Below, piece by piece: positions 9,072 to 20,303 of a DNA stretch of 64,000 nt; the first letter of the stretch is position 1; every line of letters starts with the position of its first letter. The position numbers and the translations under genes are program-made. Below the pieces are notes generated by a model. That model was not told the DNA's origin and made no database searches. It worked only from the letters and a program-made list of their open reading frames with translations. The stretch spans positions 124,001-188,000 of the forward strand of contig JAFLCD010000001.1 in the NCBI GenBank assembly GCA_017302715.1. The letters are read 5' to 3'. The DNA comes from Deltaproteobacteria bacterium (GTDB lineage Bacteria > Bdellovibrionota > UBA2394).

Positions 9072-9809
9072 ATGAACGAAACTCACTCATTACGTATTGA
9101 ATCGAGTGCTGCAAAGCCAATGCATGAGAAAGTAGCTGCTACTTTTTTACGCGAAAAACTTTTGTGGGCTCGTGAAAGATCTTGGAACTTACTCGATGAG
9201 ATTCGTGCGCAGCTAAAAGAAGGCATGACAGAGAGACAAGCTTTTCAGCTCGCGATGAACCTTTGCGCGACGAGCGGAATTTCTAAGCAGTGGCATAAGC
9301 CTGTGATTCGATTTGGTCCCGGCACCATTTTAACTTTTGCTGACGAACTCAATGATCAATATAAACTTAAGCGCGGTGATCCTATTTATATAGATTTAGG
9401 TCCTGTGTGGGCCGATCAAGAATATGGATTGGAATACGAAGGCGACGTAGCCGATTCATTTATTTTTGATGGGCAAAATATCGAAGCAAAAAAATGTATC
9501 GCGGCTGCCCGCGAAATTTTTCGTGCCACCGAAGAAGAGTGGATGAAGACAAAAATTTCTGGAATAGAACTCTACAATTTTATCAAAAAAAATGTAGAGA
9601 AGCGCGGATATAAATTAGTCGAAGAAGTTGAAGGCCATCGCATCTCTGATTTTCCTCATCACAAATATTCAAAAGAGAGATTGGCAAAAATCAATTTTGA
9701 GCCCGAACCATTGCTTTGGGTTTTAGAAATTCAGATCAAACATCCTAGTCTCGAAATAGGCGCATTTTTTGAAGATTTGCTTGGATTAGAAAAAGATCGA
9801 AGAATTTAA
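9072..9809 (+). CDS. M24-family metallopeptidase (Xaa-Pro aminopeptidase-like)
   Basis: Single-domain pita-bread-fold protein of the M24 family. Using the ATG at 9072 (MNETHSLRIE) gives 245 aa. Metal-ligand candidates are D108 in YIDLGP, D125 in EGDVADSF, H189 in EGHRISDFPHH, E219 in LEIQI and E234 in FFEDLL, in the order expected for the family. AGAGG lies about 13 bases upstream. An in-frame ATG at 8991 would add 27 residues that overlap the divergent promoter region and look non-coding. The N-terminal domain of true aminopeptidase P is absent, so it may act on small or modified substrates. The downstream HD gene is convergent and overlaps by four bases. Confidence 0.82.
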   Translation: MNETHSLRIESSAAKPMHEKVAATFLREKLLWARERSWNLLDEIRAQLKEGMTERQAFQLAMNLCATSGISKQWHKPVIRFGPGTILTFADELNDQYKLKRGDPIYIDLGPVWADQEYGLEYEGDVADSFIFDGQNIEAKKCIAAAREIFRATEEEWMKTKISGIELYNFIKKNVEKRGYKLVEEVEGHRISDFPHHKYSKERLAKINFEPEPLLWVLEIQIKHPSLEIGAFFEDLLGLEKDRRI

Positions 9810-10447
9810 AAACAAATCTCTTCTTTAAAATTTTTCAAATACGTTTTCATAGTCTCAAGTCTTTTCATGCCTTCGATTTTTCCTGCCGGAGTTTTGAGGG
9901 TCTCGACTGTTTTGAAAAGTTTTGAATAAAAATGATCGATCGTAAATTTTGAATCATCGGGTGGGCGAGATTCACAAAACGGATCTTCCTCGAAGTAGAA
10001 AATTCTTTTCATAAGCCCTGAGGTTGCGAAGACTCTCGCGATTCCAATCGCGCCCAGTCCATCTAAGCGATCAGCGTCTTGAACAATTTTTGCTTCGAGA
10101 GTTTTTGTCTCTATATTAGCGCTATAGCTGTGAGCCATAATCGCATGCGCAATTTCATCGAAAAATTTCTCTGGATAATGATTCTCTTTTAAAAACTGAA
10201 CAGCTGCTTCAGCAGATAATTTAGAAGCCTGACTTCGCCTTGGATCATTTTTAGGAATGATCACAAAATCATGTAACCATGCCGCAGGCAAAACCACTTC
10301 CAGCTTTGCATTCTCTTCTTTGCAAAGCGCCTTCGCCGTCGTCACCACTCTTTTAAAATGCAAAAAATCATGGGCTGGATCTTCATTGGATGCGATCTGA
10401 GAGATCTTCTCTGAAAGAATTTTTTCAATTTCATTAAGATTCATCAT
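9806..10447 (-). CDS. HD-domain phosphohydrolase (YedJ-like)
   Basis: A 213 aa HD-superfamily metal-dependent phosphohydrolase. The ligands are visible: H30 in FLHFKRV, H59-D60 in AAWLHDFVII and D124 in IVQDADRLDGLGA, with an extra AHAIMAHS near 103, the pattern of the YedJ/PF01966 group that acts on nucleotides or related phosphate esters. The substrate is unknown. The first 64 codons have a diverged duplicate at 15010-15202, where the copy is cut off right after the HD motif. The stop overlaps the M24 gene by four bases on the opposite strand. Confidence 0.85.
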   Translation of the reverse strand: MMNLNEIEKILSEKISQIASNEDPAHDFLHFKRVVTTAKALCKEENAKLEVVLPAAWLHDFVIIPKNDPRRSQASKLSAEAAVQFLKENHYPEKFFDEIAHAIMAHSYSANIETKTLEAKIVQDADRLDGLGAIGIARVFATSGLMKRIFYFEEDPFCESRPPDDSKFTIDHFYSKLFKTVETLKTPAGKIEGMKRLETMKTYLKNFKEEICF

Positions 10448-10531
10448 TTTACTTTAGTCGAAAATCTCAAATCTGTCGTTGATCTTAGAAATGAAACTCC
10501 ATTATGTAAGACAAAGAAAAGAGGTCCCAAG

Positions 10532-13701: not shown

Positions 13702-14934
13702 ATGCGAAAAATTTTGGGTTCATTAGCGGCCATTTCTTTGGCTTTCATCATCTCAAGCGAAAAAAACATTGTCGCCACACCCTATTGTAAGGAAGCGCTT
13801 CAAAACTTATCAGCGCTGATGACTAATCCGATGGTCTATCTGGATCTCAACGATTTTATTCTGGAGCATAAAACTAAAGATCCCGTTCTTGTGGCCGCTG
13901 GCAAAATCGATATCGGACAAGTCGGATATATCACTCATGTTTCATTGGCCGAAAATGGAAGCACGACTCCGCTAAATTCTGCGCTGGTGATTTTAGGTGA
14001 GAAAAATAATCTTCATTTAGAAAAACCGATTAAAATCTCGGATGGTCCATTCACTCACCTTGAATGGGTTTCAAATTATGGAGTTTTTCATTTGGGAACG
14101 GAGGGGTCCGATCGCGTTCATCAGCTAACGCTTAACCCTGAAGGTGTTGTAAAAACATATCGACTGGTTCAGCCTTTTGGTCTGGATAAAAACAATCCTA
14201 AACTGATCGGCTTAAAAGGTGGTGGCCCCGGCTTAAGTATACTTTGGTCTTTTTATGACGATGGATCGGTTTTTGAAATTGCGTCGCCAGAAAAGAAAAA
14301 CGTATTTCGAACCTTTGATAAAGGAGTGGAAAATCTAAAAGTTGTCAGCCAGGCGCAATCGGCTTTGCATACATTTCCAGCCGTTCAAGGGATTTCGGAT
14401 GGCAGCATTCGGCTTTTGAGTTTAGTTGGAGATAAATACGAATCAAGTTGGTTGATGGGGTACTCGAAGCGTGGATGGGTTGTCGCCGACACGGTCATGG
14501 CACCTAAAGGAGATACTGGAATTTCGATTTATGATGGCGAAGGTTATGTGGTTCGCTGGCGAATTGAGAAATCCGAATTGCTTACTGATTATATGACAAA
14601 GCTCGAGGGATATAATCCTCGTATTGATCCCACTTACAAATTTACCGGCAAGCCTCTTCTTATGGGAAGGCGATTAGTAGTTCCGACAATAGATAAAGGT
14701 AGAACTTATATCGATGTGTTTGATCTCGCAGAAACGATGAGTCCGCGAGTTGTGCGATGGGAAATGAATTTGTCTTGGGATTTAAAAGTTTTCATTGGCC
14801 CCGTAGGAGGTGCAGTGAGGATTTCGAATCTCTTCCTTTCTCCAAATGGAAAAGAAATCGTAGCCGTTTCAAACGATGGCTTTCTGGGTGTTTTAAATAT
14901 CGAAAAACTTTTCAATCATTCAAAGCCAGAATGA
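13702..14934 (+). CDS. Secreted protein of unknown function, propeller-like
   Basis: A 410 aa exported protein without a family I can name. The signal sequence runs to about residue 26 (hydrophobic LAAISLAFIISS, then SEKNIVAT). The rest is beta-rich with short strands separated by Gly/Asp turns. Several segments resemble WD or YVTN-type blades, for example LFLSPNGKEIVAVSNDGFLGVLNIE at the C-terminus, so a beta-propeller is likely. GAGGAG lies about 12 bases before the ATG. It stands at the start of a run of orphan secreted genes and just before the truncated HD-gene copy. Binding rather than catalysis is the natural guess, but nothing in the sequence fixes it. Confidence 0.65.
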   Translation: MRKILGSLAAISLAFIISSEKNIVATPYCKEALQNLSALMTNPMVYLDLNDFILEHKTKDPVLVAAGKIDIGQVGYITHVSLAENGSTTPLNSALVILGEKNNLHLEKPIKISDGPFTHLEWVSNYGVFHLGTEGSDRVHQLTLNPEGVVKTYRLVQPFGLDKNNPKLIGLKGGGPGLSILWSFYDDGSVFEIASPEKKNVFRTFDKGVENLKVVSQAQSALHTFPAVQGISDGSIRLLSLVGDKYESSWLMGYSKRGWVVADTVMAPKGDTGISIYDGEGYVVRWRIEKSELLTDYMTKLEGYNPRIDPTYKFTGKPLLMGRRLVVPTIDKGRTYIDVFDLAETMSPRVVRWEMNLSWDLKVFIGPVGGAVRISNLFLSPNGKEIVAVSNDGFLGVLNIEKLFNHSKPE

Positions 14935-14985
14935 CCATGAATATTTTAGTCTGGCCTGCTACTAGCGCAGTGGCTTCAGTATTCC

Positions 14986-15009
14986 GCGTAGTGAAACGAA
15001 GCGTTGAGA
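14986..15009 (+). repeat. 24-nt dispersed repeat, copy 1
   Basis: A 24-base sequence beginning GCGTAGTGAAAC and ending GCGTTGAGA. It is identical to the copy at 19932-19955. It lies directly beside the point where the truncated HD-gene copy (15010-15202) stops matching its parent. Upstream flanks of both copies also share TTCAG and a TATTC- or ATAC-type stretch. Confidence 0.85.
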
Positions 15010-15202
15010 TAGGAATGATTACAAAATCGTGCAGCCAAGCCGCAGGTAAAACTACTTCTAATTTTGCGTTCTCTTCTTTGCAAAGATCCTTTGCTGTTTT
15101 TACCACTCTTTTAAAATGCAAAAAATCATGCGCCGGATCTTCAGCGGAAGCGACCTGAGAAATTTTCTCGGAAAGAATTTTTTCGATTTCAGAAAGATTC
15201 AT
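15010..15202 (-). pseudogene. Truncated duplicate of the HD phosphohydrolase gene
   Basis: The minus strand from the ATG at 15202 (MNLSEIEKILSEKISQ) matches the first 64 codons of the HD gene at 10447-9806. The match includes FLHFKRVV, CKEENAKLEVVLPAAW and LHDFVIIP. It stops abruptly after the codons for IIP, where the 24-nt repeat begins; the frame then continues into unrelated codons to 14912. The D of the later QDADRLDG motif and the rest of the domain are missing, so it cannot be an active HD enzyme. Many of the base changes against the parent are at third positions, so the copy was probably under selection before truncation, or was not copied recently. Confidence 0.85.
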
Positions 15203-15259
15203 GGATGTCAGATTACAAAATGTCCCCATTTAAAGGAAGGGGTGTTCTTGACTTCGATT

Positions 15260-19461: not shown

Positions 19462-19773
19462 TCAATTCCCAGGATTTTTAAATGTCGTAAGTTTGTAAAG
19501 ACAAGCGCCAAGGTGATCTGCGAACGCTGCAAGTTCGGCATTTTCATATTTAGCGAGTTTCAAAATTGTTTGGCTTTCTCGAAATGACCCAAGCGCTATC
19601 TGATAAATTCTTTTTTTATCTGCATAAGATCGTTTCGCGTTTCCCTCCGATAAATTGAGCGATACTGAAGAGGCTGCTCTTAAGATTTGATTTCTTAAAT
19701 GTGCAGGTAATTTTATATTTTCAATTGTTTGATAATACTGGATGGCAAGTTCAAGGGTTCTAAAAGTTTTCAT
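19462..19773 (-). CDS. Four-helix-bundle protein (23S rRNA intervening-sequence type)
   Basis: Member of the TIGR02436/S23 four-helix-bundle family first found encoded inside 23S rRNA intervening sequences; related folds also accompany diversity-generating retroelements. From the ATG at 19773 (MKTFRTLELAIQYYQ) it has 103 aa. The core signature is present: LRNQILRAASSVSLNLSEGNAKRS, then KKRIYQIALGSFRESQTIL, and a final helix LGACLYKL. An upstream ATG at 19812 would add 13 residues. The role of the family is unknown, with RNA or protein binding through the basic bundle proposed. There is no rRNA gene in this window. The gene lies instead downstream of tmRNA, separated by a stack of inverted repeats and a 24-nt repeat. 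Confidence 0.85.
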   Translation of the reverse strand: MKTFRTLELAIQYYQTIENIKLPAHLRNQILRAASSVSLNLSEGNAKRSYADKKRIYQIALGSFRESQTILKLAKYENAELAAFADHLGACLYKLTTFKNPGN

Positions 19774-19845
19774 GAGGGGTGTTTCATTGCAATATTTGGA
19801 CCACCCCTTCAATCCTGCAAATTTGCGCTATTTGAGAAATAAATA

Positions 19846-19879
19846 TTCCGGATTTTCGGAAAAACCTCCGGATCCGGAA
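19846..19879. repeat. Inverted repeat TTCCGGAT/ATCCGGAA
   Basis: TTCCGGAT at 19846-19853 is the exact reverse complement of ATCCGGAA at 19872-19879. It overlaps the 12-base palindrome TCCGGATCCGGA at 19867-19878 that forms the terminator core. Together they make a nested symmetric block between the four-helix-bundle gene and tmRNA. Confidence 0.6.
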
Positions 19880-19885
19880 GTTTTT
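19860..19885 (-). terminator. ssrA: Probable terminator of tmRNA, near-symmetric on both strands
   Basis: On the minus strand AACTTCCG, loop GATC, CGGAGGTT pair in 8 bp with one G-T pair and run into five T. This lies about 75 bases past the tmRNA 3' end and is the first U-run hairpin after it. On the plus strand the same bases give one mismatch and also end in T5, so it may stop transcription from both sides. Confidence 0.65.
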
Positions 19886-19899
19886 GTCATTCTGTATTT

Positions 19900-19928
19900 A
19901 GTATTCTGTATACGGTATTCAGAATACT
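19900..19928. repeat. Inverted repeat AGTATTCTG/CAGAATACT
   Basis: Perfect 9-base arms at 19900-19908 and 19920-19928 with an 11-base spacer (TATACGGTATT). It lies immediately left of the 24-nt repeat at 19932. The stretch before it (TTCTGTATTTAG) repeats part of the same theme, giving a run of degenerate TATTCTG units. Confidence 0.7.
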
Positions 19929-19931
19929 GAA

Positions 19932-19955
19932 GCGTAGTGAAACGAAGCGTTGAGA
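19932..19955 (+). repeat. 24-nt dispersed repeat, copy 2, abutting tmRNA
   Basis: Identical over 24 bases to the copy at 14986-15009. Its last base is separated by a single G (19956) from the first base of the tmRNA 3' end at 19957. The 3' ends of tmRNA and tRNA genes are common integration sites, so this could be the border of an inserted element or a decayed attachment site; no integrase is present in the window. Confidence 0.85.
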
Positions 19956-19956
19956 G

Positions 19957-20303
19957 TGGAGGCGGCGGGAGTCGAACCCGCGTCCGAGTGGCTTCTCTCT
20001 ACCCATCTTCATGTGTAGTTCTTCCTTTAATTTAAAACTAAGAAGCTCCGAAGAACGGGATAATCTTAGTTCGAGCTGCGGATATTAATGCTCATCACAC
20101 ACCGAAGCTCTGCGTGAGAACATCCCTGCTTTTTTAACGCCGTCCGAACTTAGCAGGAGTCGGATCGAATCGACGAGCAGCGCTTAGGCTGCCAACGCGA
20201 AGTTAGATTCGTCGTTTATAGTTTGCCAATGAGGTTACGAGATCACTGACACCTCGACATGCAGAGTAGAAATCTACGCACCCGTCGAAGCCAAAACGCC
20301 CCC
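19957..20303 (-). ncRNA. ssrA: tmRNA (transfer-messenger RNA)
   Basis: Rescues stalled ribosomes by acting as alanine tRNA and then as template for a degradation tag. The 5' end at 20303 begins GGGGGCG followed by TTTTGGCTTCGACGGG, the tmRNA D-loop-like signature. The 3' end at 19957 has GGGTTCGACTCCCG (T arm) and CGCCTCC plus discriminator A. The seven acceptor pairs form with one G-T. CCA is not encoded. The length of 347 nt is normal for a one-piece tmRNA. The tag frame lies at 20219-20184 and ends in ALAA-stop. A terminator is present at 19860-19885, and a candidate promoter (TTGCAT, 17 bases, CTAGAT) lies upstream on the minus strand between 20380 and 20340. Confidence 0.95.
20184..20219 (-). 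other. tmRNA tag-peptide reading frame
   Basis: The frame ending in GCG TTG GCA GCC TAA encodes NDESNFALAA when read from AAC at 20216. Aligning AAC-GAC-GAA with the E. coli tag puts the resume codon at 20219-20217, which is ATA (Ile) instead of the usual GCA. A GCA lies 7 bases upstream but in another frame, where it would end after seven codons (ANYKRRI). The tag would therefore be INDESNFALAA. Confidence 0.7.

Follow-up and report, generated by a model that had tools for sequence, protein, structure and literature searches.

A probable small mobile unit with an S23-family gene at the 3' end of a Bdellovibrionota tmRNA gene

Why does a gene of the S23/IVP protein family, which is known mainly from ribosomal RNA insertions, lie at the 3' end of a tmRNA gene in a member of the Bdellovibrionota? 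The rRNA intervening sequences (IVS) that carry such genes have been described as relics of an unidentified mobile element, and we know of no function assigned to S23/IVP proteins since 1993. We analyzed a 64-kb window (i.e., the whole stretch of 64,000 nucleotides) of a draft genome of 2.39 Mb. Both the closest relative among named proteins and the genomes with the pattern described below belong to the Bdellovibrionota as well.

The original prediction placed an S23-family gene directly 3' of the tmRNA gene on the same strand, with inverted repeats between the two and a 24-nt repeat touching the tmRNA 3' end. These observations held: the two genes were identified by ARAGORN/Rfam and by TIGR02436/PF05635 scores, the inverted repeats were confirmed at 19860 to 19885 and 19897 to 19931, and the 24-mer is exact and has a second copy in the window (Table 1). 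From the tmRNA 3' end, the order is 24-mer, period-7 array, terminator-like palindrome, leader hairpin, and S23 gene. RNA folding of positions 19850 to 19957 gave a z score of -3.0. The array scored 14 at period 7, a value also reached by just one of the remaining 182-nt segments of the window (n = 693), and its pattern has no other occurrence in this genome, where the S23 unit is likewise single copy. It is palindromic on the upstream side of the open reading frame (ORF) only; many relatives have enclosing arms, and many also carry a leader hairpin 5' of the S23 gene. A search for a target duplication around the window unit found none. The tmRNA, whose tag peptide is DESNFALAA, ends in ...CTCCAC in the window. 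A 3' CCA is encoded in two other genomes (G001 and G004) and not at this end (19956 to 19961), so it must be added post-transcriptionally.

Table 1. Positions of the tmRNA gene, the S23 gene, and the associated repeats in the window
Feature	Position	Strand	Evidence
tmRNA gene (ssrA)	19956-20303 (lower bound also called 19954)	-	ARAGORN; Rfam RF00023, 170 bits
24-nt end sequence GCGTAGTGAAACGAAGCGTTGAGA, adjoining tmRNA; last base is the one before the tmRNA 3' end	19932-19955	-	
Exact second copy of the 24-mer GCGTAGTGAAACGAAGCGTTGAGA	14986-15009	-	Sequence search
Degenerate period-7 array, self-palindromic (CAGTATTCTGAATACCGTATACAGAATACTAAATACAGAAT)	19889-19931	-	Repeat scoring
Palindrome AAAAACTTCCGGATCCGGAGGTTTTT, a stem resembling a terminator, between the tmRNA trailer and the S23 gene	19860-19885	-	Inverted-repeat search, folding
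Leader hairpin GGGGTG...CACCCC, directly 5' of the start codon	19775-19808	-	Inverted-repeat search, folding
S23 gene, 103-aa basic four-helix-bundle protein (TIGR02436/PF05635)	19462-19773	-	Profile match

The ORF at 19462 to 19812 (minus strand) scored 57.8 bits against TIGR02436 (curated cut-off, 24) and 53.4 bits against PF05635 (curated cut-off, 33.8). Comparison with relatives placed the start at the ATG at 19773 to 19771 (MKTFRTLE...), and the resulting protein has a predicted pI of 9.7. In the AF2 model (pLDDT, 92.9), helices at residues 3 to 18, 24 to 46, 50 to 73, and 79 to 97 form a predicted four-helix bundle, for which the best PDB folds were 2gsc (XCC0516) and 2rld (BT_0352), with Avd matching more weakly. 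The S23 motif GxxRxxxSxxxNxxE (PMC3936711) corresponds to Q29, R32, S36, N40, and E43 in the window protein, i.e., Q replaces G; all five positions are invariant in alignment A2. The dN/dS values (0.05 to 0.2, between species and between copies) indicate that the S23 protein is subject to purifying selection. The gene is patchily distributed (present in 12 of 59 genomes in one survey and in 73 of 291 in another), and no relative of the window protein was detected in the viral contigs, plasmids, and phages searched at the settings used.

We compared the flanks of about 150 related S23 loci from several phyla. The arrays beside these genes are degenerate tandem repeats of 6- to 8-nt units, mostly 7 nt. 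In a first set (73 loci from a genome-wide scan; 800-bp flanks), an array score of at least 14 was found in 41% of the near flanks, compared with 5% of the far flanks (1.6 to 2.4 kb away) and 1.3% of shuffles; period 7 was the commonest, followed by period 6. A second set, which was collected by another route with 500-bp flanks and shared some loci with the first, exhibited a similar enrichment (44% of near versus 10% of far flanks; P = 2e-9). The left and right arrays were inverted copies of each other in 38% of cases versus 0.7% in the first set (P = 6e-10) and in 46% versus 0.6% in the second (P = 2e-9; six loci common to the first set were dropped for this test). The arrays of one locus are not copies of those of other loci. 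Since the arms match within a locus and not between loci, each unit has an arm pair of its own. Pairing of these arms can give the whole unit the shape of an rRNA IVS, a long stem whose loop holds the S23 gene.

Many units in the Bdellovibrionota contain an S23 gene on either side of the leader hairpin, in head-to-head orientation with the 5' ends inward (28 pair calls were divergent and 2 convergent; a small number of loci entered twice). Such pairs around a palindromic leader were observed at L028, L003, L058, L062, L040, L045, L051, and other loci. The two arms of a pair resemble each other less than one and the same arm does across sites, so the pair moves as one. This arrangement bears on a retroelement model, in which S23, like Avd, would serve a reverse transcriptase in trans, and fold-back of the cDNA at the leader hairpin would prime its own synthesis to give head-to-head pairs. 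The orientation of the pairs and the hairpin between them agree with this, and so do the modeled resemblance of the fold to Avd and to the reverse transcriptase-bound Avd of a diversity-generating retroelement (DGR) and the match of one relative to bAvd as well. However, no RVT_1 domain was found in the window genome (G000) or in G017, in which S23 units are multicopy, and only L012 and L021 adjoin a reverse transcriptase and look like the Avd of a DGR. We therefore rejected a reverse-transcriptase partner as a current requirement, and we regard the retroelement model as a whole as quite unlikely. The TIGR02436-like genes beside a reverse transcriptase at L012 (in G005) and L021 (in G026) are probably Avd genes of DGRs. 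The Avd protein is a related four-helix bundle (PMC10053308); the window genome differs from DGR carriers in having no detectable reverse transcriptase.

Copies of S23 units within one genome have sharp borders and lie in unrelated sites. In G006, an 807-nt S23 unit lies between two copies of CGGAAATTT, and a further duplication reads CTATCGCG. The joined flanks of the unit align uninterrupted to one place in G014, a genome of the same genus in which our family search found no S23 gene; this place represents the empty site. A corresponding empty-site comparison in the genus of Desulfobacter latus revealed flanks that were not conserved. G017 contains many S23 copies (several 95 to 98% identical), 50 copies of the inverted end GGTTCTCTTCTGAAATTG, deletion derivatives of 189 to 207 nt, and the 8-bp duplication ATGGCAAT. 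On these sequence features, the spread of the S23 units and short derivatives represented by L224 and L230 (G017) and by L035 and L076 (G006) is MITE-like, with 8- to 9-bp target duplications. The proposal that the gene and its repeats form one unit is thus borne out by the array enrichment, the inverted arms, and the sharply bordered multicopy units.

The G006 and G017 copies resemble MITEs of DDE transposons in their inverted ends and 8- to 9-bp duplications, and the unit could accordingly be viewed as the passenger of a DDE transposase that recognizes inverted ends. The 50 ends and the short derivatives of G017, the duplications of G006, and the empty site in G014 all fit this view. Nevertheless, a search for the G017 end in the window genome, G006, and G053 found none, the window unit shows neither ends of the G006 and G017 type nor a duplication, and in other phyla the ends are heptad arrays that differ at each locus. 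S23 units also differ from MITEs in carrying a conserved protein-coding gene. For the window unit, we consider a MITE passenger decidedly unlikely.

The positions of S23 units relative to RNA genes addressed the further proposal that the unit is a small mobile unit that inserts at RNA genes. Eleven tRNA genes were located within 400 to 500 bp of S23 units (116 kb), whereas the outer flanks (417 kb) held a single one (conditional P = 5e-7). Counted by loci, P was 4e-5, or 3e-4 if the genome is assumed to average one tRNA per 70 kb. About eight independent loci underlie these counts, and in most of the tRNA-adjacent cases the 3' end of the RNA points toward the S23 unit. Most of the RNA-adjacent units, whose RNAs are tRNA-Ser, tRNA-Glu, tRNA-Asn, tRNA-Ala, and tmRNA, fall into two clades of the S23 tree, which was built on 95 columns for 95 rows and in which the tRNA-lineage clade was recognized after the fact. 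The window clade comprises the window unit (tmRNA), L032 (tRNA-Ala), and L005/L033 (tRNA-Glu; the gene is broken by an assembly gap). Many of the compared genomes are drafts whose contigs break in these repeats. Near this clade, L186 lies next to a 10-nt stretch resembling the 3' end of tRNA-Glu. In the second clade, each of the eight rows is located at the 3' end of a tRNA (Asn, Ser, or Glu) or at a short remnant of such an end. The proposal therefore holds for the window lineage and for a second lineage at tRNA 3' ends and fails as a rule for the family: most TIGR02436 units lie away from RNA genes. Family-wide targeting of RNA genes was rejected on this ground.

The usual layout at these sites is a tRNA gene ending in CCA, a 7- to 10-bp stem, an array arm, a loop, the inverse arm, and the S23 gene. 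The window unit conforms to the sequence of RNA 3' end, palindromic array, and S23 gene, and does not have the A/T stem that adjoins the CCA in its relatives. The sequence of this stem varies between units while its pairing is kept, and the stem is absent from tRNA-Ser genes that have no adjacent unit (G047, G009, G112, G177, and G130). Hairpin-plus-array units with no S23 gene were also observed, i.e., L272 (G047, tRNA-Ser), L265 (G127, tRNA-Ser), and L274 (G069, tRNA-Met); those of G127 and G069 contain only part of the palindrome. Between G069 and G047, the flanks are 91 to 100% identical, and a 532-nt S23 block stands against 161 unrelated nt, with the border 3 nt past the CCA, a difference for which gain and loss are indistinguishable.

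Within genus g41 (family f6), tRNA-Ser and S23 were probably inherited as a pair rather than newly brought together by insertion. This retention across the genus, together with the low dN/dS values, would suit a domesticated gene, i.e., an S23 gene of long vertical descent that serves the host in RNA maturation and that selection has brought near RNA genes. However, S23 genes are absent from most relatives, as their patchy distribution shows, and the RNA gene beside the unit differs between species. Domestication is thus a very unlikely explanation.

For the tmRNA locus, we examined the 3' flank in 17 genomes including that of the window, in 15 of which ARAGORN placed the tmRNA; among these 15, the window genome was the only one with an S23 gene 3' of tmRNA. 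Two members of the same family (G001 and G002) have the thrS-tmRNA order of the window and neither an S23 gene nor an array in the tmRNA 3' flank. The searches returned no genome of the same genus, and at this family-level distance the absence of the block agrees with the original prediction. In some relatives with no S23 gene, palindromes nevertheless adjoin the CCA (e.g., at the tmRNA of G002); the hairpin may thus serve as a terminator for the host.

tRNA 3' ends are general insertion hot spots. Integrase-type islands at tRNA and ssrA 3' ends could accordingly have left the S23 gene and its repeats as cargo or debris, with no targeting of RNA genes by the unit itself. Beside the tmRNA gene at L124/L146 (G002), L115 (G007), and L105 (G038), its 3' end is present in further copies, inverted or direct, of the kind that islands or fold-back synthesis leave behind; such copies in several relatives mark the tmRNA site as a general hot spot. 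In G177 and G130, moreover, the S23 unit follows a 12- to 14-nt tRNA-Ser 3' remnant that lies 6 to 12 kb from the tRNA-Ser gene, from which later insertions seem to have split it. On the other hand, no island lies between the RNA 3' end and the unit in the window or at L032, L002, L154, L158, L159, and L160, and units with the same array anatomy are also found away from RNA genes. The window unit shares with ssrA/tRNA integrative islands a border at a tRNA-like 3' end and differs from them in its size (about 0.5 kb), in having no integrase inside, and in the lack of a duplicated end: the 64-kb window contains a single tmRNA 3' end, with no duplicate at a far border. Overall, we consider the hot-spot explanation unlikely.

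A direct clue within the window comes from the 24-mer. Its second copy is positioned where homology ends in a truncated paralog that is 92% identical over 64 aa to the ORF at 9809 to 10453 (the truncated paralog itself occupies 14912 to 15229 on the minus strand). At the tmRNA, the junction reads CTCCAC followed by TCTC, versus CTCCACCA in G001 and G004. Since the 24-mer begins at broken-off host sequence in both copies, these junctions hint that it may be the terminus of an element that moved.

Taken together, these results lead us to favor, with moderate confidence, the reading of the block at 19462 to 19955 as a copy of a small mobile unit whose lineage takes up sites at the 3' ends of genes for tRNA-like RNAs. 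Its parts are an end sequence that is fixed, a palindrome of heptad repeats, and the gene of a basic S23/IVP protein; tmRNA would suit the unit as a target because the tmRNA 3' end is tRNA-like. RNase III is the enzyme that removes IVS from 23S rRNA. By analogy, transcription of the RNA gene may run on into the unit as a trailer, and 3' maturation may then cut the unit out as a structured RNA, so that the host RNA survives. The S23 protein may bind the stem RNA or DNA of its own unit and may help a trans-acting enzyme, possibly different between lineages, to copy the unit to another tRNA-like 3' end.

A broader proposal, which we advance tentatively and regard as possible rather than probable, is that S23/IVP proteins are a conserved component of bacteria-wide mini-elements with inverted degenerate-heptad ends. 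Some lineages would home to tRNA-like 3' ends, accompanied by partial units lacking S23, as a counterpart of tRNA-targeting retroelements and SINEs, and the rRNA IVS would be members that landed in rRNA genes. An anatomy for the element behind the rRNA IVS is provided by the inverted heptad arms, the S23 genes paired head to head, the lineages at tRNA 3' ends, and the partial units that lack S23, and the finds at tRNA-like 3' ends extend a family known mainly from rRNA. In the literature searched, which included few subscription journals, we found no description of S23 genes at tRNA or tmRNA 3' ends or, apart from the heptamers of Coxiella, of a link between S23 genes and heptad arrays.

The closest known systems are the 23S rRNA IVS of Coxiella and Leptospira and the 16S/23S insertions of CPR bacteria, which share the protein family and an inverted-repeat stem around the ORF. 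These rRNA IVS lie inside the rRNA gene, whereas the window unit follows tmRNA and its relatives follow tRNA; furthermore, the arrays of S23 units are degenerate and locus specific, and most S23 units are not at RNA genes. Heptanucleotide repeats are also what constitutes the cyanobacterial STRR. The Coxiella IVS carries tandem GACAGAT heptamers directly 5' of its ORF (PMC4990558), and the CPR rRNA insertions encode S23/IVP family proteins (PMC11270868). TAACTGA heptanucleotide repeats form period-7 intergenic arrays in Beggiatoaceae, cyanobacteria, and Bacteroidetes, in a paper that mentions no link to S23 genes (PMC4679880). Those arrays are near-uniform, whereas the S23 arrays are degenerate and paired as inverted arms. 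In a Desulfobacter-group genome, the same hexad arrays recur at many sites away from the query S23 gene (L207, L211, L214, L215, and L217 in G317; L206 in G293).
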